64,000 nt of DNA from Dyadobacter luteus (GTDB lineage Bacteria > Bacteroidota > Bacteroidia > Cytophagales > Spirosomataceae), in NCBI RefSeq assembly GCF_003383615.1, contig NZ_QNUL01000015.1, forward strand, positions 62,001 to 126,000, read 5' to 3'. The notes under the pieces are model-generated. The model had not been told where the DNA came from. It worked only from the letters and a program-made list of their open reading frames with translations, and ran no database searches. Below, one piece after another: positions 41,601 through 49,343 of the stretch. A program made the position numbers and the translations under genes. The stretch's first letter is position 1; each line of letters starts with the position of its first letter.

Positions 41601-42296
41601 TTAGTGCAAAACTTTAAAAAGCAGATCGGTCAGAAAATCAGAAGTAAACTCACTCTTGTTCTGCGGATTGACATCCGTAAGTTTGGGCAGAAACTGACAG
41701 AAAAATTGTTGATGATGTGCCGTCTCTATGAGCGTGCTGCTCAGAGAATAAGGATATGCGTATTCAGGATCATAAGCCGTAATAGCTCCGGCAATTTTTG
41801 CACAAAGATCTTTATAGGGTTTAAAAACCTCGTTTTTGTTGTACTCGCTCACTTCCTTCACCAGATACACCTTGCTGCTTTCAGAAATGACGATATGGTT
41901 AAGAAACTTTTTGTTGTAGTCAAGCTGCCCCGAACTCTCAGGTAGTTCATGCGTCAGGAGCTCTACAATGGTTTTTAATTTTACTTTTTTATCCTCCACA
42001 TTCTGCAATTTGAACACCAGCAGAAATTCCATGTAGCTCCAATACCAGTTAAGGATATACAGCAACAATTTGTGTTTGTTTTCAAAATAGCGGTAAATAG
42101 TAGCCTCCGTTGTATGAATTTCTACCGCCAGCTTCTTAAATGTAAAATGCTCAAAACCAAGATCATAAATTAAATCAATCGCACTTTTTACAATATGTTT
42201 ACCTATCTCGCTCTTCTCTGGATCCCGAAGATAGATATTCTCATTAAGGTGAAAAGTAAGTTGAAATTCCATGCCGCGTGAATAATGTTTCTGCAA
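41601..42296 (-). CDS. TetR/AcrR family repressor, likely of the adjacent exporter
   Basis: A 231-residue regulator with the TetR helix-turn-helix FEHFTFKKLAVEIHTTEATIYRYFENKHKLLLYIL (residues ~45-80) and a helical ligand-binding C-domain. It is divergent from the ABC-HlyD-TolC operon; the 121 bp between them carries a 17-bp palindrome overlapping the operon promoter, which fits TetR-type binding. The protein probably represses the exporter and perhaps itself until a small molecule binds. Start gives MQKHYSRGMEF; Met9 is an alternative. Confidence 0.88.
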   Translation of the reverse strand: MQKHYSRGMEFQLTFHLNENIYLRDPEKSEIGKHIVKSAIDLIYDLGFEHFTFKKLAVEIHTTEATIYRYFENKHKLLLYILNWYWSYMEFLLVFKLQNVEDKKVKLKTIVELLTHELPESSGQLDYNKKFLNHIVISESSKVYLVKEVSEYNKNEVFKPYKDLCAKIAGAITAYDPEYAYPYSLSSTLIETAHHQQFFCQFLPKLTDVNPQNKSEFTSDFLTDLLFKVLH

Positions 42297-42358: not shown

Positions 42359-42375
42359 CAATAGTATTACTATTG
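42359..42375. promoter_or_regulatory. 17-bp palindrome: candidate TetR operator
   Basis: CAATAGTATTACTATTG is perfectly symmetric (8+1+8). It ends on the TTG at 42373-42375 that could serve as the -33 box for the exporter, so repressor binding would block RNA polymerase. A near copy of a half-site (TTACTAATG) follows at about 42383. Confidence 0.6.
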
Positions 42376-42392: not shown

Positions 42393-42400
42393 TATATTTG
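42393..42400 (+). promoter_or_regulatory. -7 element (TATATTTG) of the exporter operon
   Basis: Perfect TAnnTTTG, 18 bases before the ABC start codon at 42418, with TTG 17 bases upstream. Confidence 0.6.
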
Positions 42401-42417: not shown

Positions 42418-44082
42418 ATGAAAAAAATGACTCCCTTACAAAGGCTTTGGAGCCTCATAAAGCTGGAGAAACCCGAAATAGTATCGATATACTTTTATGC
42501 CATACTGAGTGGACTCGGACAACTCAGCGTACCCGTAGGAATTCAAGCCATTATCGGCTTTGTACTGGGCGCAGCTATGGTGACTTCAATATATGTACTG
42601 ATTTTTCTTGTTGTACTTGGCGTAGCAGCGGTAGGTATTTTCCAGATTAATCAGATGAAGATTATCGAAAAAATCCAGCAAAAGATCTTTGCAAGAAATG
42701 CTTTCGAATTTGCCGATATCATTCCGCGATTTGATCTCATCAAAACAGATAACCTTTATCTCCCCGAAAAGGTGAACAGGTTTTTTGATACCCTGAATGT
42801 TCAGAAGGGGCTGTCGAAATTATTATTAGATGTGCCAGTTGCCAGTATTCAGATTGTGTTCGGCCTGTTGCTTTTGGGCATTTACCACCCATTCTTTATC
42901 ATATTCGGCTTATTCCTCTTGCTGATCTTATGGCTTATCTTTTACATGACAGGTAAGGACGGTCTGGATTCAAGTCTGGAAGAAAGTAAGTACAAATACA
43001 AGACCGTTGAGTGGCTTACAGAAATGGCACGTGTGATTACGCCTTTCAAAGTAAACCGGAATTCTTATCTCAATCTGACCAACACTGACAATTATGTCAC
43101 CAAATACCTGAACTCGCGTACGGATCACTTCAGGGTACTGTTGTTTCAATTCAAGACACTGGTTTTCTTCAAGGTAGCGATAACCCTGGCCATGCTTTCG
43201 GTAGGTACTTATCTTTTGCTGAGCCAGCAACTTAATATTGGTGAATTCATCGCCGCCGAGATCGTCGTACTTACGGTGATCGGAGCCGTTGAAAAACTGA
43301 TCGTAAGCCTTGAAAGCGTTTATGACGTAGTAACTGGCCTTGAAAAACTGGCATCTGTAACGGAAGGGCTGACAGAGTCCAATAACGGACTGGATATAAG
43401 CCAGGTAAAAAACGGACTGAATATCGAATTAGACAATCTTACGTTTGGTTTCCCTGGCACGCGAAAAATCGTACAGAATCTTAGTCTGAAAATTCCGGCA
43501 GGTAGCAAAATTGCCATTGCGACAGGAGAATCTACAGGAAAATCGACACTCCTTAAGTTACTCGCCGGCGTTTACAGGGATTTTGAGGGTATATTTAATG
43601 TTAACGATATACCGCTGACCAACTATGAGAACAAGTCGCTTCGCGGGCATTTTGGTCTGTACCTGAACCAGAAAGAAATATTCGGAGGCAGTGTTTTCGA
43701 AAATATCAGCATGGGTAACAAGGCGGTAACGCACGAACACATCATTGACCTGGCTCAGCAAACCGGTCTTATCGAATACATCAAGCAATTACCTAAAGGA
43801 CTCGACACCATCGTGAATCCGAATGGTAAGAAACTGGTGGGGCGTACGCTGAGAAGCATTCTGCTACTTCGTGCTTTCGTTACCGAACCTGACGTGCTGA
43901 TCCTGGAAAAACCATGGGATCACATGGGGCCGGAAACCAGAGAGCACCTGATTTCGTATCTAAAAAACAGACCTCCGCATGTGACCGTAATCGTTGCCAC
44001 ACAGGACAAAGATTTCGTAGAAGAAAGCGATTACACACTTTCTCTTCAGGCTGGATTTGTAAACATCACTAAAAACAACTAA
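42418..44082 (+). CDS. ABC exporter-type membrane/ATPase protein with degenerate nucleotide-binding motifs
   Basis: ATG 42418 (MKKMTPLQRLWSL) gives 554 residues: an N-terminal membrane domain (~20-300, several hydrophobic helices) fused to an ABC ATPase-like domain, like type-I secretion/LapB-HlyB proteins but without a peptidase domain. By-eye alignment with HlyB shows changed motifs: Walker A begins T369 instead of Gly (TGESTGKST, Lys375 kept), Q-loop Gln is Asn417, LSGGQ is LVGRT (473-477), Walker B Asp/catalytic Glu are Glu497/Lys498, and the H-loop His is Thr528. The frame is intact and is followed 2 bp later by an HlyD gene. It probably transports with impaired or unusual ATP use; the substrate is unknown. 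Confidence 0.85.
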   Translation: MKKMTPLQRLWSLIKLEKPEIVSIYFYAILSGLGQLSVPVGIQAIIGFVLGAAMVTSIYVLIFLVVLGVAAVGIFQINQMKIIEKIQQKIFARNAFEFADIIPRFDLIKTDNLYLPEKVNRFFDTLNVQKGLSKLLLDVPVASIQIVFGLLLLGIYHPFFIIFGLFLLLILWLIFYMTGKDGLDSSLEESKYKYKTVEWLTEMARVITPFKVNRNSYLNLTNTDNYVTKYLNSRTDHFRVLLFQFKTLVFFKVAITLAMLSVGTYLLLSQQLNIGEFIAAEIVVLTVIGAVEKLIVSLESVYDVVTGLEKLASVTEGLTESNNGLDISQVKNGLNIELDNLTFGFPGTRKIVQNLSLKIPAGSKIAIATGESTGKSTLLKLLAGVYRDFEGIFNVNDIPLTNYENKSLRGHFGLYLNQKEIFGGSVFENISMGNKAVTHEHIIDLAQQTGLIEYIKQLPKGLDTIVNPNGKKLVGRTLRSILLLRAFVTEPDVLILEKPWDHMGPETREHLISYLKNRPPHVTVIVATQDKDFVEESDYTLSLQAGFVNITKNN

Positions 44083-44084
44083 GA

Positions 44085-45422
44085 ATGGATCAGGCAAAAT
44101 ATCAGATTCCTCTGAGGTCCTTCGATCAGATATATCGTATCAACGAAGATAGTAAAGTAGCGAAATGGTCCTTTGCTTTTCTCGTGTTCCTGTTGGCGAT
44201 CTTGTTTCTGCCGTGGACACAGAACATCAAGTCAAAGGGAAATATCACAACGCTTTACCAGGAACACAGAGCACAGAATATCAACTCTCCTATCCCGGGG
44301 AAAATTGTAAAATGGGCTGTGCGGGAAGGTGAATTCGTAAAAAAGGGTGATACCATCATGCACATTTCCGAGATTAAGGAAGATTACCTTGATCCCAACC
44401 TGATTGGCCGGACACGTGAACAGCTTGAAGCGAAAAAAGGTACGATTGAGTTTTATGAAAGGAAAGCAGCAACGGCATCGGTTCAGATGGAAGCGCTGAG
44501 GGAATCAGAGAAACTAAAAATTGATCAGCTAAATAACAAACTTAAACAGCTGGACAACAAACTCGCATCAGAGAAAGCAGAACTGGAAGCTGTTACAAAT
44601 GAATACGAACTAGCCAAAAACCAGTACGAGCGCCAGCAGAAGATGTATGAAGATGGGCTGGTATCTCAAACCCAGCTGCAACAGCGTAACCTGGCTTTCC
44701 AGAATGCTTTGGCCAAGCGTGTAATGGTAGATAACAAACTGGCACAAACCCAGCAGGAGGTCATCAATACACGTATTGAGCAGAACAGTGTAAAACAGGA
44801 GTACGCGGAAAAAATAAGCAAAACAGAAGGAGATCGTTTCCAGAGTATGAGTAATGTTACGACAGGAGAAGCTGAAGTGGCAAAACTTGAAAATCAGGTA
44901 AGCAATTATATCATTCGTAACGATATGTACACGATTCTGGCTCCACAGGACGGTCAGATCGTACAGGCTAATAAAGCGGGGATCGGCGAAATACTTAAAG
45001 ACGGAGAACGCATTGCTGTTATAGTACCAACACGTGTACACTACGCTGTAGAAATGTATGTCGAGCCGGTGGACTTACCGCTGATCAGCGTCGGACAAAA
45101 AGTACGGTTTATGTTTGACGGTTTTCCGGCAATTGTATTCAGTGGATGGCCCAACAACAGCTACGGAACCTTTGGTGGGAAAATTGTGGCTTATGAAAAC
45201 ACGATAAGTCCAAACGGTATGTTCCGCGTATTGGTAGAAGAAGACGATACAGAAGACAAAAAATGGCCCGCTCAACTCAAACTGGGAACAGGAGCTCAGG
45301 GCATTGCCTTGCTAAAAGACGTACCGGTTTGGTACGAGCTATGGCGGAATATCAATGGCTTCCCGCCCGACTATTACAACCTTCAGGAGCAGAAGGCTAA
45401 CGAAAAAGTGAAAATCAAGTAA
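44085..45422 (+). CDS. HlyD-family periplasmic adaptor protein
   Basis: A 445-residue adaptor with one N-terminal membrane helix (~28-45, WSFAFLVFLLAILFLPW), a biotinyl/lipoyl-like half (INSPIPGKIVKWAVREGEFVKKGDTI), a long coiled coil (~125-270, Lys/Gln/Glu-rich) and the second lipoyl half (YTILAPQDGQIVQANKAGIGEILKDGERIAVI). It bridges the ABC membrane protein and TolC across the periplasm. The stop overlaps the TolC start (TAATG), so translation is coupled. Confidence 0.92.
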   Translation: MDQAKYQIPLRSFDQIYRINEDSKVAKWSFAFLVFLLAILFLPWTQNIKSKGNITTLYQEHRAQNINSPIPGKIVKWAVREGEFVKKGDTIMHISEIKEDYLDPNLIGRTREQLEAKKGTIEFYERKAATASVQMEALRESEKLKIDQLNNKLKQLDNKLASEKAELEAVTNEYELAKNQYERQQKMYEDGLVSQTQLQQRNLAFQNALAKRVMVDNKLAQTQQEVINTRIEQNSVKQEYAEKISKTEGDRFQSMSNVTTGEAEVAKLENQVSNYIIRNDMYTILAPQDGQIVQANKAGIGEILKDGERIAVIVPTRVHYAVEMYVEPVDLPLISVGQKVRFMFDGFPAIVFSGWPNNSYGTFGGKIVAYENTISPNGMFRVLVEEDDTEDKKWPAQLKLGTGAQGIALLKDVPVWYELWRNINGFPPDYYNLQEQKANEKVKIK

Positions 45423-46855
45423 TGTTACATATTCATAAAATTGTCTTTACGGTCGTGCTGCTGCTAGCCTGCATGCTATATACGCGTAGTGCAGGCCAGA
45501 CCCGTGATTCCATACCGGAACTGAATGCAGAAGAGGTATTGGAAATTGTACGGAAGCATCATCCGGTTGCAAGGCAGACCGACTTACATATTGATCAAGC
45601 CAAGGCTGAACTGCTCGTGGCCCGCGGCGCATTTGATCCGGTAATCAGCGCTTACCTTTCCCGCAAGAGATTTGCCGGGACCAACTATTACCAGCAAACT
45701 TCCCCCCAAATCACCATCCCCACCTGGTTTGGGATTGAAATACAAAGCGGACTCGAAAATCTGCGTGGAAGCCGGCTGGATCCTACCATGACCGCCGGAA
45801 AATCAAGTTACATAGGCGTAACCGTGCCATTAGCCAAAGATTTACTAATGGATAAGCGAAGAGCTGCTTTGAAACAAGCGCGCATATTCAACACCATGGC
45901 CGTGACGGAACAACGGGCGGTAGTCAACAACCTGCTGATGGACGCTATGGACGCGTATTGGCTATGGGTCCGCTCCTACCAAATCTTTAAAATTGTAGAA
46001 AATACGGTACTAATCAACCAAAGAAGGCTTGACCTCGTACGCCAGTCTTTTCAAAATGGCGAAACTGCCGCAATTGATACCGTAGAAGCATTGGCCCAGC
46101 TACAAAGTTTTCAGTATCAGCAAAATGAACGATGGCTGGAATTTCAGAATACCGGCCTTGAATTATCTGCCTTTTTATGGACAAAAGATACTGAGCCTTA
46201 TGACCTGCCGGTCACAGTTATTCCACAAGGTGGCTGGGAAAATGAAGAGGCCGTCAAAAACTTCAATACGAGTCTGGAAGAACTGCTGAGTGTGGCCAAC
46301 AAAAGTCATCCGGAGCTTCAGATATATGATTTTAAACTGGATGCACTTGATATTGAAAAGAAGCTGAAATTTCAAATGCTTTTGCCTAAAGCTGACTTCA
46401 CATACAATCACCTGAGTAAAGATTACGGCATTGTCAGCAGTGAATATCTGACGCCATTTTTTGATAACAACTACCGCTACGGATTTAAGTTTGCCTTGCC
46501 TCTCCGTCTTTCTGAAGGACGCGGGGAATACAGAAAAGCGAAGATCAAAATTGAGTCGACCAGACTCGACCTTGATCAGAAAAGGCTAAGTGTGCAGGTT
46601 AAGGTAAAAAGCTATTACAACGAACTCACTAACCTGCGCAACCAGATCGCCCTGCAAAGCAATAACTATATCAACTATCAGCGCCTGGTACAAGCAGAAG
46701 AAGCGAAATTGGAGAGTGGAGAAAGTTCGCTGTTCCTGATCAATACCAGAGAAAATAAAGCGCTCGAAGCGCAACAAAAATTGCTGGAATTGAAGACAAA
46801 GTATTTCAAAACAATTTACGCCTTGCAATGGAGCGCGGGGTTGCTGGCATTGTAG
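45422..46855 (+). CDS. TolC-family outer-membrane efflux protein
   Basis: A 477-residue protein with a signal peptide (cleaved near SAGQ) and the two alpha-helical repeats of TolC-type ducts (NAEEVLEIVRKHHPVARQTDLHIDQAKAELLVARGAFDPVISAYLS; VDLVRQSFQNGETAAIDTVEALAQLQSFQ; YRKAKIKIESTRLDLDQKRLSVQVKVKSYYNELTNLRNQI). It gives the outer-membrane exit of the exporter. Overlaps the HlyD stop by 1 base; last gene of the operon, ending against the REP array. Confidence 0.92.
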   Translation: MLHIHKIVFTVVLLLACMLYTRSAGQTRDSIPELNAEEVLEIVRKHHPVARQTDLHIDQAKAELLVARGAFDPVISAYLSRKRFAGTNYYQQTSPQITIPTWFGIEIQSGLENLRGSRLDPTMTAGKSSYIGVTVPLAKDLLMDKRRAALKQARIFNTMAVTEQRAVVNNLLMDAMDAYWLWVRSYQIFKIVENTVLINQRRLDLVRQSFQNGETAAIDTVEALAQLQSFQYQQNERWLEFQNTGLELSAFLWTKDTEPYDLPVTVIPQGGWENEEAVKNFNTSLEELLSVANKSHPELQIYDFKLDALDIEKKLKFQMLLPKADFTYNHLSKDYGIVSSEYLTPFFDNNYRYGFKFALPLRLSEGRGEYRKAKIKIESTRLDLDQKRLSVQVKVKSYYNELTNLRNQIALQSNNYINYQRLVQAEEAKLESGESSLFLINTRENKALEAQQKLLELKTKYFKTIYALQWSAGLLAL

Positions 46856-47074: not shown

Positions 47075-47600
47075 ATGGCCTCATCTCAATATTTTATACG
47101 AAATCAAAATGGAAATTACTTCCTCACAATGACAGCAGTTGATTGGGTAGACGTTTTTTCGAGAAAAGAATACCGATTCATCATTGTTGAAGCTCTCAGG
47201 TATTGTCAGAATAACAAGGGCTTGATCATACATGGCTGGTGCCTTATGTCCAATCATCTGCATATGCTCACAGCCGCAAAGGAGGGGTTTCAACTTTCAG
47301 ACATCATCCGGGATTTCAAGAAATTTACATCGAAAAGAATCAGAAAGCAGGAGAGATTGGATGCTTTACAGATTTCAATATGCCAGAAAGTTCAAAACCA
47401 ATGTCAAAGAGTACAAATTTTGGCAAGATGGGAATCATGCTACCGAATGCTTTAATTATGAGTTTGCTATGCAAAAACTTTACTACATTCATCAGAATCC
47501 GGTTCGGGCACTGATTATTGAAGAGGCAGAGCATTACCTTTTTAGTTCAGCAAAAAACTACTGTGGTCAAAAAGGATATTTAGATGTAAAGTTGATATAG
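47075..47600 (+). pseudogene. REP-associated tyrosine transposase (RAYT, IS200-like) relic, frameshifted
   Basis: The first part has the HUH motif in IHGWCLMSNHLHML and the preceding FLTMTAVDWVDVFSRKEY; the second part has the tyrosine helix QKLYYIHQNPVRALI and the C-terminal YLFSSAKNYCGQKGYLDV. They are in different frames: the break lies at about 47338-47350, between FTSKRI and ESRRDWML, and some family residues seem missing, so a small deletion is likely. RAYTs cut and move REP hairpins as single strands; this copy should be inactive. It is flanked on both sides by REP-like palindromes, as expected for a RAYT locus. Confidence 0.85.
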
Positions 47601-47630: not shown

Positions 47631-47731
47631 ATAATCGGGTCGGCTGAGGCTCAGCGTTTGCAATGCCAATTTTTATATACGCGTTGCAAACGCTAAACCA
47701 TGCAACCCCGATTACAAATCAGGGTTAGCGC
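47631..47731. repeat. REP-like palindrome array, right of RAYT relic
   Basis: TAATCGGGTCGG, then GCGTTTGCAATGC paired with GCGTTGCAAACGC, then AACCCCGAT-TACAA-ATCAGGGTT. It copies the order of the left array (46873-46919 and 46940-47022) with point differences. It overlaps the 3' end of the DUF6055 gene on the minus strand. Confidence 0.75.
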
Positions 47732-49089
47732 AAAACTTTCGTCCCCGTCAACTTAAACTGATACGGCCACTGCTCTTCCGGTGATGGCGATTTTTGTCTC
47801 CCAAACGGTATCGCCCAATGTTCTGCAGGAGCTCCGCTTACAACTAACCACAGATGCTCAGTATCCTTAGGAACTGCAAACTCTGCCTCTCCTTCTGCAT
47901 TTTTGTATACATCACTATATACCCTGCTTCCATTCTTCTTCTGCGCCACAAAACCATAACGCCATCCCGCTTTATCTGTTTTCACATTCGCATATCCAGG
48001 GGCACCGGCCATTCCTTTAAAATTCAGATGAAGCTTTGCATCCCCAGCCGGAACCTGCAATGGGATACCATTATACCCATAATTCTGCGGACAGTTGGTA
48101 GAATCCACTTTATACCATCCGTCTCCAACCTCGTTCAATTTGGTTGTATGCTGATTTGCATATTGAGCGGCCACTTTTTCGACCCTCTTCAAATCCCAGG
48201 TCATGAATTTACGGGCAGCATCAAAAATTTCATCATTGAACTTGTCCTGATCTGTGTTAGTAATACGCTTATAGGTTGCCACAGGATCCTCTCCCTGTTC
48301 TGTTTCTCTGCACAATTTCCCAAAGAACTCCTTCCCATGCTTCTCCGACCAGTATTCAAGTACATATGGGGAGTGATACATATTGGTAGGATGAAGAAAG
48401 GCATAATGCGTTTTCTTCATGAAGTTCACAAGGTGGTAATTTTCAAATGTCATCCATTCCGGATAAACCTGCCAGAGCATATACTGAGCAGACATTTCCA
48501 TGATAGGCCCACGAGGTCCCTTTTTGTTATCAGAACTCGCCATATATTGAAAAGCGTGACCCAGTTCGTGAGCCAGCGCCCCATAAGGTGCTTTTGACAT
48601 ACGCACAGCCGGCGTCCACAGAATTCCTATTTTATTCTCAACACCTCCGCCAAATGCTGTTTGTTCTTCCCCTCCGAACACATAAAGAATCATCTTGTAC
48701 TGATCCGTCAGCGATTTGCCTTTCTGAACAATTTTAAGATCATTCACGTAATAATCATAGAAGCGTTCGCACTCTCTGAGCGCAGCCTTCGGATCAAACC
48801 GTGCTTTTTCGTTCGGATTTTTTGTGGGGTCCTGCCCAAATTCCTTATTCCAGAAAATCGCTATATTATCAGATTGAACCATACGCTTGAAACTATATTC
48901 ACTGGCATCATTGGTATAGTCATTACCGTCCGGCACCTTCATTACTTTTGCAGGAATATACAATTCCTTTTCTTTCGTTACCTCTTTCGACTTGTCATGG
49001 CCATCTGCAAAAGACGTCACAGGCGTGACGACTAACCCACCAATATAAAATAGGACGGCGGCGGCTTTCAGAAAAATTTTACTTTCCAT
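47725..49089 (-). CDS. DUF6055-type secreted protein with HExxH metallopeptidase motif
   Basis: ATG at 49087-49089 (MESKIFLKAAAVLFYIGGLV) gives 454 residues with a signal peptide. The central domain has HELGH (174-178) with downstream PIMEMSAQYMLWQVYPEW, matching DUF6055 proteins, which look like gluzincin metallopeptidases. The C-terminal ~120 residues (LQVPAGDAKLHLNFKGM... HLWLVVSGAPAEHW) form a beta-sandwich-like domain. It is likely a secreted or surface protease; substrate unknown. The C-terminal codons run into the right REP array. Divergent from the TonB-dependent protein gene. Confidence 0.85.
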   Translation of the reverse strand: MESKIFLKAAAVLFYIGGLVVTPVTSFADGHDKSKEVTKEKELYIPAKVMKVPDGNDYTNDASEYSFKRMVQSDNIAIFWNKEFGQDPTKNPNEKARFDPKAALRECERFYDYYVNDLKIVQKGKSLTDQYKMILYVFGGEEQTAFGGGVENKIGILWTPAVRMSKAPYGALAHELGHAFQYMASSDNKKGPRGPIMEMSAQYMLWQVYPEWMTFENYHLVNFMKKTHYAFLHPTNMYHSPYVLEYWSEKHGKEFFGKLCRETEQGEDPVATYKRITNTDQDKFNDEIFDAARKFMTWDLKRVEKVAAQYANQHTTKLNEVGDGWYKVDSTNCPQNYGYNGIPLQVPAGDAKLHLNFKGMAGAPGYANVKTDKAGWRYGFVAQKKNGSRVYSDVYKNAEGEAEFAVPKDTEHLWLVVSGAPAEHWAIPFGRQKSPSPEEQWPYQFKLTGTKVLR

Positions 49090-49343
49090 TTGTGCTATAT
49101 AGAGAAATAAATGATTTAATCTCATAAATATAGCATTTCCAATATCTCTCACTTTAACCGCTGGCGGATAGGTTAAAATCCGCGTTATATCGGTTAATCT
49201 CAGCCAATTGCGAGGGTTCAAATTTCCGGTTATAGGTTTTTTTCACACAGTCTGCAACATTCGAGAAACTAAAGTGTCCTTACTCCATCAATTGGACACA
49301 CACGCACCATTTCGTTAAACTAACCCCTAATCACCATGTTACC

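Follow-up and report, generated by a model that had tools for sequence, protein, structure and literature searches.

A Bacteroidota family of HlyD/TolC-coupled ABC-type exporters with degenerate or missing nucleotide-binding domains

The gene at positions 42418..44082 (plus strand) of the window, which is the whole stretch of 64,000 nucleotides of Dyadobacter luteus DNA that was analysed, encodes a protein, P0001, that by its fold and by the profile match of its nucleotide-binding domain (NBD) is an ABC exporter, and by its motifs is a non-working ABC ATPase. The reading favoured here, to which we give about even chances, is that P0001 belongs to an ABC-derived three-part exporter, where transport is not powered by ATP hydrolysis, but probably by an ion gradient. 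A dimer of membrane domains (TMDs) in the inner membrane, an HlyD adaptor and a TolC duct would make up the tripartite exporter. The TMD dimer would keep its alternating access and would be driven, by analogy with SbmA, by protons or another ion passing through E84, E281, E292/K293 and nearby charges. The residual NBD would bind nucleotide without useful turnover, as a structural clamp or an energy sensor, and one lineage would have discarded it. This reading is supported by the fold, by the loss of motifs, by a graded series of relatives leading to a clade without NBD, by purifying selection and by family-specific charges in the membrane domain.

The frame is open over its whole length, as an earlier note on this DNA had it, and gives 554 amino acids. 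Profile PF00005 matches residues 352-499 with 50.5 bits, above its cut-off of 25, and from this follows that the C-terminal half of P0001 is an NBD. The TMD profile PF00664 gives 12.1 bits, under the cut-off of 28 that other family members pass (L016, for example, with 50.3 bits). The predicted structure is an exporter TMD joined to an NBD fold, and agrees with a type IV ABC exporter. The NCBIfam models of type I secretion lie far off, with LssB at 161.1 bits for a cut-off of 693.1 and two further models at 150.5 bits for 510.15 and 118.4 bits for 725.55.

Consider now the motifs of the NBD in an alignment with canonical exporters. Walker A reads TGESTGKS (residues 369-376; 43522..43545, plus strand as for all positions of this gene), which means that, with respect to GxxGxGKS, the first and second glycines are gone, while the third glycine and the rest of GKS, with the P-loop lysine K375, are present. 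The Q-loop position (43666..43668) has N417 for glutamine, the signature position (residues 473-477; 43834..43848) reads LVGRT, the Walker B region VLILEK (493-498; 43894..43911) has E497 for the aspartate and K498 for the catalytic glutamate, and the H-loop position (44002..44004) has Q529 for histidine. All five of signature, Q-loop, Walker B aspartate, catalytic glutamate and H-loop histidine are accordingly replaced. The earlier note had read by eye a change of Walker A glycine to Thr369, of Gln to Asn417, of LSGGQ to LVGRT, of Asp to Glu497 and of Glu to Lys498, with Lys375 retained, and all of this is borne out by the alignment; its replacement of the H-loop histidine also stands, but the aligned residue is Q529 and not T528. 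The profile PF00005, which it had proposed as a check, matches the NBD. Since ordinary exporters score as canonical in the same alignment, and the anchors G374, K375, N429 and R485 are kept, a shifted alignment is ruled out as the cause of the losses. Each of the two ATP sites of an ABC dimer consists of Walker A and B, the glutamate and the histidine of one chain and the signature of the other. P0001 has neither half in working form, so no complete site would be formed in a homodimer or together with an intact partner.

The losses are not peculiar to P0001. In a census, 14 NBD positions were scored in 148 full-length main members of the family (P0001 included) and in 27 basal members, i.e., distant relatives with 60-360 bits to the TMD profile, from the same phylum but another class. 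The census is a sample, with 21 of the 101 matches of a phylum scan with the TMD profile left out, and P0001 relatives are over-represented in its main set, since L042-L121 are the best 80 of at least 555 relatives; duplicate loci (L001, L027-L030, L122, L123, L127, L135 and L139) were removed before counting. Among the 148 main members the P-loop glycine is kept in 148 and the lysine in 147, but the Walker B aspartate in 11, the catalytic glutamate in 31, both of these acids in 1, the histidine in 1, the Q-loop glutamine in 9 and the second signature glycine in 3, while 52 keep none of six key positions. The combination of lysine, aspartate, glutamate and histidine was looked for, since close homologues with canonical motifs would have spoken for recent decay, and it occurs in 0 of the 148; that P0001 is a conserved exporter whose ATPase motifs are not the normal ones, as had been proposed, is thereby strongly supported. 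The 27 basal members have lysine in 27, aspartate in 27, glutamate in 25, aspartate and glutamate together in 25, histidine in 21, all four residues in 21, signature serine in 16 and second signature glycine in 22, and the Q-loop glutamine in none. From the two sets of counts follows that the glutamine and part of the signature have been lost more widely than the Walker B, glutamate and histidine residues.

These counts can be compared with those of ordinary exporters. Nine canonical exporters kept all 14 scored positions; the presence of Walker A and LSGGQ had been the ground for choosing three of them, and L154, which would have been the tenth, was dropped as it lacks LSGGQ. A second control consists of 28 loci not picked by signature, L154 included, among which a few are the same gene twice; here lysine, aspartate, glutamate, histidine, signature serine and second signature glycine are each present in 28 of 28, the combination of lysine, aspartate, glutamate and histidine likewise in 28, and glutamine in 27. 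The first signature glycine was dropped as a sign of decay: only 12 of these 28 keep it (the others reading LSVGQ, LSQGQ and the like), and its absence from 26 of the 27 basal members is therefore uninformative.

Two acids occupy the Walker B and catalytic positions in 97 of the 148 main members. In 64 of them the Asp-Glu pair reads Glu-Asp, an apparent swap, and in 27 it reads Glu-Glu; at the histidine position asparagine is commonest (57 of 148). The swap and the asparagine could perhaps mean that the site is altered instead of merely decayed. Slow hydrolysis is a possibility that the acid pair leaves for these members, and one may then suppose that the family still hydrolyses ATP, slowly, in an altered active site that has Glu-Asp where Asp-Glu is usual and asparagine where histidine is. 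Such an enzyme would have to account for the Glu-Lys of P0001 itself and for the third of the main members with none of the key positions, and we regard it as very improbable.

The NBD is nevertheless maintained. Residues N429 and R485 are invariant (129 members), and the phosphate-binding lysine is under selection in full-length members, its presence in all but one of them arguing for a real role of nucleotide. The dN/dS ratio of the NBD is 0.02-0.15 in ten of twelve full-length pairs, those for which it could be computed, and that of the TMD is 0.015-0.055 in eight full-length pairs, the ratios being rough since dS exceeds 1 in several pairs; in the two pairs with P0001 dS is saturated. Between P0001 and L002, dN is 0.237 for the NBD and 0.093 for the TMD, i.e., about 2.5 times larger for the NBD. 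Judged from these substitution rates, the NBD changes more quickly than the TMD, yet under purifying selection. Recent decay to a pseudogene is ruled out by the open frames, the low dN/dS and the identical losses across genera.

A retained P-loop, lost catalytic residues and an NBD under purifying selection with N429 and R485 fixed would all be expected if P0001 were an ATP-binding switch, where the TMD is driven or gated by nucleotide that is bound but not hydrolysed, nucleotide exchange resets it, and relatives with TMD only are a derived exception. A single-molecule paper from 2026 states in its title that ATP binding alone powers substrate translocation by an ABC transporter (PMC13040083). 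The switch would, however, have to work without the signature by which the ATP sandwich is closed, its second glycine being so rarely kept, and repeated cycles would require an input of energy. Furthermore, it is inapplicable to the clade without NBD, the HlyD and TolC genes of which are the same. The suggestion in the earlier note that the exporter uses nucleotide binding only thus fits the lysine of the full-length members and fails for this clade, and we consider the switch unlikely, although less so than the other alternatives.

The clade in question consists of open frames of about 335-367 amino acids, which in a search with P0001 cover its residues from about 4 to 320. The proteins stop near P0001 residues 316-333, ahead of the NBD, and the HlyD gene follows immediately. 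Among 37 genomes of the genus, the TMD-only form occurs in 22 (23 copies) and the full-length form in 12, with 4 genomes having both and 7 having none of the two; the Dyadobacter luteus genome of P0001 has two TMD-only copies, and the form is also found outside the genus, in other genera and families. All 17 loci have HlyD downstream of the TMD-only gene (joined to it in 14 of 15 by a stricter neighbour clustering), and TolC is present in the 15 loci with enough flank. A direct scan of the 17 neighbourhoods for an NBD frame found none. P0001 itself falls with same-genus loci and Dyadobacter arcticus both in a 157-row tree, which is a quick one with long branches, and in a 67-row tree, which is a chosen subset rooted on the basal group. 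In the latter, the TMD-only rows form a single clade (100/100), the sister of which is L197, a full-length protein of 748 amino acids with a degenerate NBD (support 100/98). An AU test gives p = 0.027 against the full-length main members as a clade excluding the TMD-only proteins. The nesting beside L197 and the AU test together point to a single loss of the NBD from an ancestor in which it was already degenerate.

The two TMD-only genes of P0001's own genome lie in cassettes of an AI-2E-type permease, the TMD-only protein, HlyD and TolC (L031, G000:C1 723000-734512, and L032, G000:C1 426000-437000). The two TMD-only proteins are 92% identical, and in L031 the permease match is divided between two ORFs. 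The permease was rejected as a motor for the TMD-only form, as only three loci of the 17 (L031, L032 and L035) have it ahead of the TMD-only gene in the same orientation, two of the 17 having short flanks.

The neighbourhood of P0001 is that of a tripartite exporter. An HlyD-family adaptor (44085..45422, plus strand; PF13437, 1.2e-16) and a TolC-family outer membrane protein (45422..46855, plus strand; PF02321, 8.3e-38) follow the gene, and a divergent TetR-family regulator, the start codon of which is uncertain, precedes it (41601..42296, minus strand; PF00440, 5.9e-9). The coupling to HlyD and TolC genes under an own TetR, and the lack of an intact partner ABC gene beside P0001, where the neighbours in the window are these three genes, agree with what the earlier note had seen. 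In the best 80 of the at least 555 named relatives, HlyD is downstream in 80, TolC in 77, and a TetR gene is grouped with the operon in 45; the neighbour clustering over these loci covered the top 14 clusters, with eight rarer ones (5-8 of the 80 loci) beside the operon genes.

Upstream, the palindrome CAATAGTATTACTATTG (42359..42375) is a candidate TetR operator. Its core, AATAGTA-N-TACTATT, is exact in 5 of 13 loci (the window, L004, L005, L011 and L042), and L003 has a shorter form. The element TATATTTG (42393..42400, plus strand) resembles the Bacteroidota -7 element, the consensus of which we take to be TAnnTTTG, and a match to this consensus starts 23-31 bases upstream of the start codon in 13 of 13 loci. 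The TetR gene and the palindrome suggest that the system is inducible and its substrate small. Beyond the TolC gene, two frames overlap at 47075-47600 (plus strand), perhaps as parts of a split gene, and the first of them matches Y1_Tnp, an IS200-like transposase; 47725-49221 (minus strand) strongly matches DUF6055 (PF19527), with 489 bits.

The missing catalytic residues might be supplied in trans, if the degenerate or TMD-only subunit paired with an intact ABC protein from another locus. Candidates are at hand, for eleven further NBD hits, in open frames of 581-757 amino acids, are found in the genome of P0001. But as a single chain lacking both halves of the ATP site, P0001 would leave the site of a heterodimer incomplete, and a second NBD frame occurs in only 3 of the same best 80 neighbourhoods (direct scan) and in none of the TMD-only ones. 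When the NBD of L014, a related full-length member, is used as query against the genome of P0001, the best hit is to P0001, followed by general exporters. Of the 12 genomes of the genus that have the full-length form, just 4 also have the TMD-only form, so full-length and TMD-only proteins are not obligate partners. The borrowed partner ATPase that the earlier note had considered is weakened by the loss of both site halves and, as far as linked genes go, by the scarcity of NBD frames nearby; we give it a low probability, clearly below that of the ATP-binding switch.

The contact regions of the TMD bear on the same question from both sides. In the predicted structure of P0001, the break between helices 55-104 and 115-156 (residues 105-114; 42730..42759) probably corresponds to coupling helix 1, and the short helix between 159-205 and 218-268 (residues 207-212; 43036..43053) to coupling helix 2. 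These are altered, not deleted, in the TMD-only proteins. When the latter are compared with 17 full-length relatives, conservation relative to expectation (window standard deviation 0.109) is lowest around 218 (-0.42), 180 (-0.30), 171 (-0.18) and 206 (-0.13), with further dips at 265 (-0.12), 15 (-0.11) and 110 (-0.11). This may hint that the loop adjoining coupling helix 2 is relaxed, which, in particular around 218 and 180, would count slightly against a partner ATPase; an indel is present in the loop, the dips at 206 and 110 amount to only about one standard deviation, and the windows at 171, 265 and 15 do not face the NBD. Conservation is better than expected around 131 and 101. The segment 117-135 is kept very well, and the 17 TMD-only proteins have E117 in 17, R121 in 17, D124 in 16 and, at the lysine position of coupling helix 2 (211), arginine in 17. 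The well-kept segment and the basic residue are what a partner ATPase would lead one to expect; these retained residues, in contrast to the lost coupling helices of SbmA, count against an ion-driven exporter.

What speaks for an ion-driven exporter is found in the membrane helices. E84 (42667..42669), in the long helix 55-104 of the model, is a family-specific acid, being E in 148 of 148 main members and 17 of 17 TMD-only proteins, and D or E in 27 of 27 basal members. E281 in TM6 (43258..43260), a candidate ion-coupling residue, is E or D in all 148 main members, and E in 17 of 17 TMD-only proteins and 26 of 27 basal ones. The pair E292-K293, also in TM6 (43291..43296), is kept as E in 147 of 148 main members and E or D in 17 of 17 TMD-only proteins at the first position, and as K in 147 and 17 at the second; K193 shows no variation in any of the three groups. 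By comparison, 26 ordinary exporters (of 27, L215 having been left out for an internal stop; a stricter filter left 9) have an acid at 84 in 0, at 281 in 0 and at 292 in 4, and lysine at 193 in 1. As the acids at 84 and 281 occur also in the basal group, which mostly keeps aspartate, glutamate and histidine, a role in structure or substrate binding is possible for them.

HlyD-type adaptors work with several kinds of inner-membrane component, and the TMD-only operon has no visible motor. Both facts would suit a gated pore or scaffold, i.e., a passive conduit, or a holder of HlyD and TolC for another transporter. The TM helices and charges are, on the other hand, conserved beyond the needs of a scaffold, and an ungated pore spanning the envelope would presumably be costly to the cell; the pore or scaffold is, in our estimate, improbable, a little more so than a partner ATPase. 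The ion-driven exporter has precedents. SbmA is described as an ABC-like TMD without NBD, with coupling helices lost and a ladder of glutamates, driven by protons and proposed to descend from a full-length ABC protein (PMC13316013). For the membrane domain of LmrA alone, ethidium-proton symport has been reported; on the other side of the balance, the same paper did not see one ATP-gated current when only this domain was present (PMC6155054). Together with the incomplete ATP sites and the operons without NBD, these two precedents lead us to prefer an HlyD/TolC exporter driven by ions, the NBD of which would be a vestige that binds nucleotide.

The family extends well beyond what the earlier note described, being phylum-wide and including relatives without NBD. 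The TMD profile (E <= 1e-30) finds members in 98 of 395 sampled genomes of the phylum, which belong to 50 of 171 genera, and the best 80 of the at least 555 named relatives include Dyadobacter, Chryseobacterium, Pedobacter, Flavobacterium, Polaribacter, Lewinella and others. A relative of 41.8% identity is carried by Riemerella anatipestifer plasmids of 102-105 kb (NZ_CP081938.1, NZ_CP081930.1, NZ_CP081932.1 and NZ_CP072187.1) and is annotated as an ABC transporter ATP-binding protein, a name given to 5 of 7 plasmid hits. An N-terminal extension of about 120-260 amino acids precedes the TMD in L015, L016, L018-L023, L025, L124, L126, L130 and L197, and in 22 of the 27 basal loci. In three relatives scanned no Pfam match above cut-off was found in the extension, and a profile comparison with the C39 domain lent no support to a C39-like nature (probability 0.1%). 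A full-text literature search, covering few subscription journals and no preprints, found neither an account of an exporter family that is linked to HlyD and TolC and has dead or missing NBDs nor biochemistry on any family member. A coevolution paper on Flavobacterium johnsoniae concerns a tolC operon with what its authors call an RND-type pump (PMC10197871).

A wider claim, which we hold to fall somewhat short of even chances, is that this natural, phylum-wide and HlyD/TolC-coupled family has been caught in changing from ATP-driven to ion-driven transport, independently of SbmA. The change would have gone in steps, in an order deduced from members living today and from rooting on the basal group: the Q-loop glutamine and part of the signature would have been lost first, the Walker B, glutamate and histidine residues next, and the NBD last. 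Every stage would still have living representatives, and the final two coexist in four genomes, P0001's among them. ABC exporters are defined by their coupling to ATP. With nearly intact, degenerate and NBD-less forms that share the same adaptor and duct, a change from primary to secondary transporter becomes testable by comparison of the stages, and the name ABC transporter ATP-binding protein in a database entry may not signify a functioning ATPase.

Among known systems, type I secretion of the HlyB, PrtD and LssB kind shares with P0001 an operon with HlyD and TolC, but P0001 lacks the catalytic motifs and is far under the NCBIfam cut-offs. The NHLP (NHLM) bacteriocin exporter models TIGR03796 and TIGR03797 are the best named models for two TMD-only members and one basal member, with scores far under the cut-offs (49 for 853 and 226 for 709). 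The heterodimers TM287/288, TmrAB and MsRv1273c/72c share the exporter fold and degenerate NBD positions; in heterodimeric exporters with one degenerate site an intact site remains (PMC7756269), whereas P0001 has lost both site halves in one gene, with no partner encoded nearby. The membrane domain of LmrA is, like the TMD-only form, an exporter TMD without NBD, but it is a laboratory truncation and not a natural family. The closest precedent is SbmA/BacA (SLiPT), which shares with the P0001 family an ABC-exporter-like TMD dimer and conserved membrane glutamates; its lack of an NBD is shared only by the TMD-only relatives. It differs in being an importer, with extra TM0 helices (PMC13316013), while the P0001 family is linked to HlyD and TolC, has a degenerate NBD in most members and includes surviving intermediates. 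The SbmA family profile PF05992 matches neither P0001 (E up to 1) nor the TMD-only L032 (E up to 0.1), and by this profile and its NBD P0001 is placed outside SLiPT. NBD-less ABC-like transport is thus already known from SbmA/SLiPT, and what is new here is probably the case that is coupled to HlyD and TolC.
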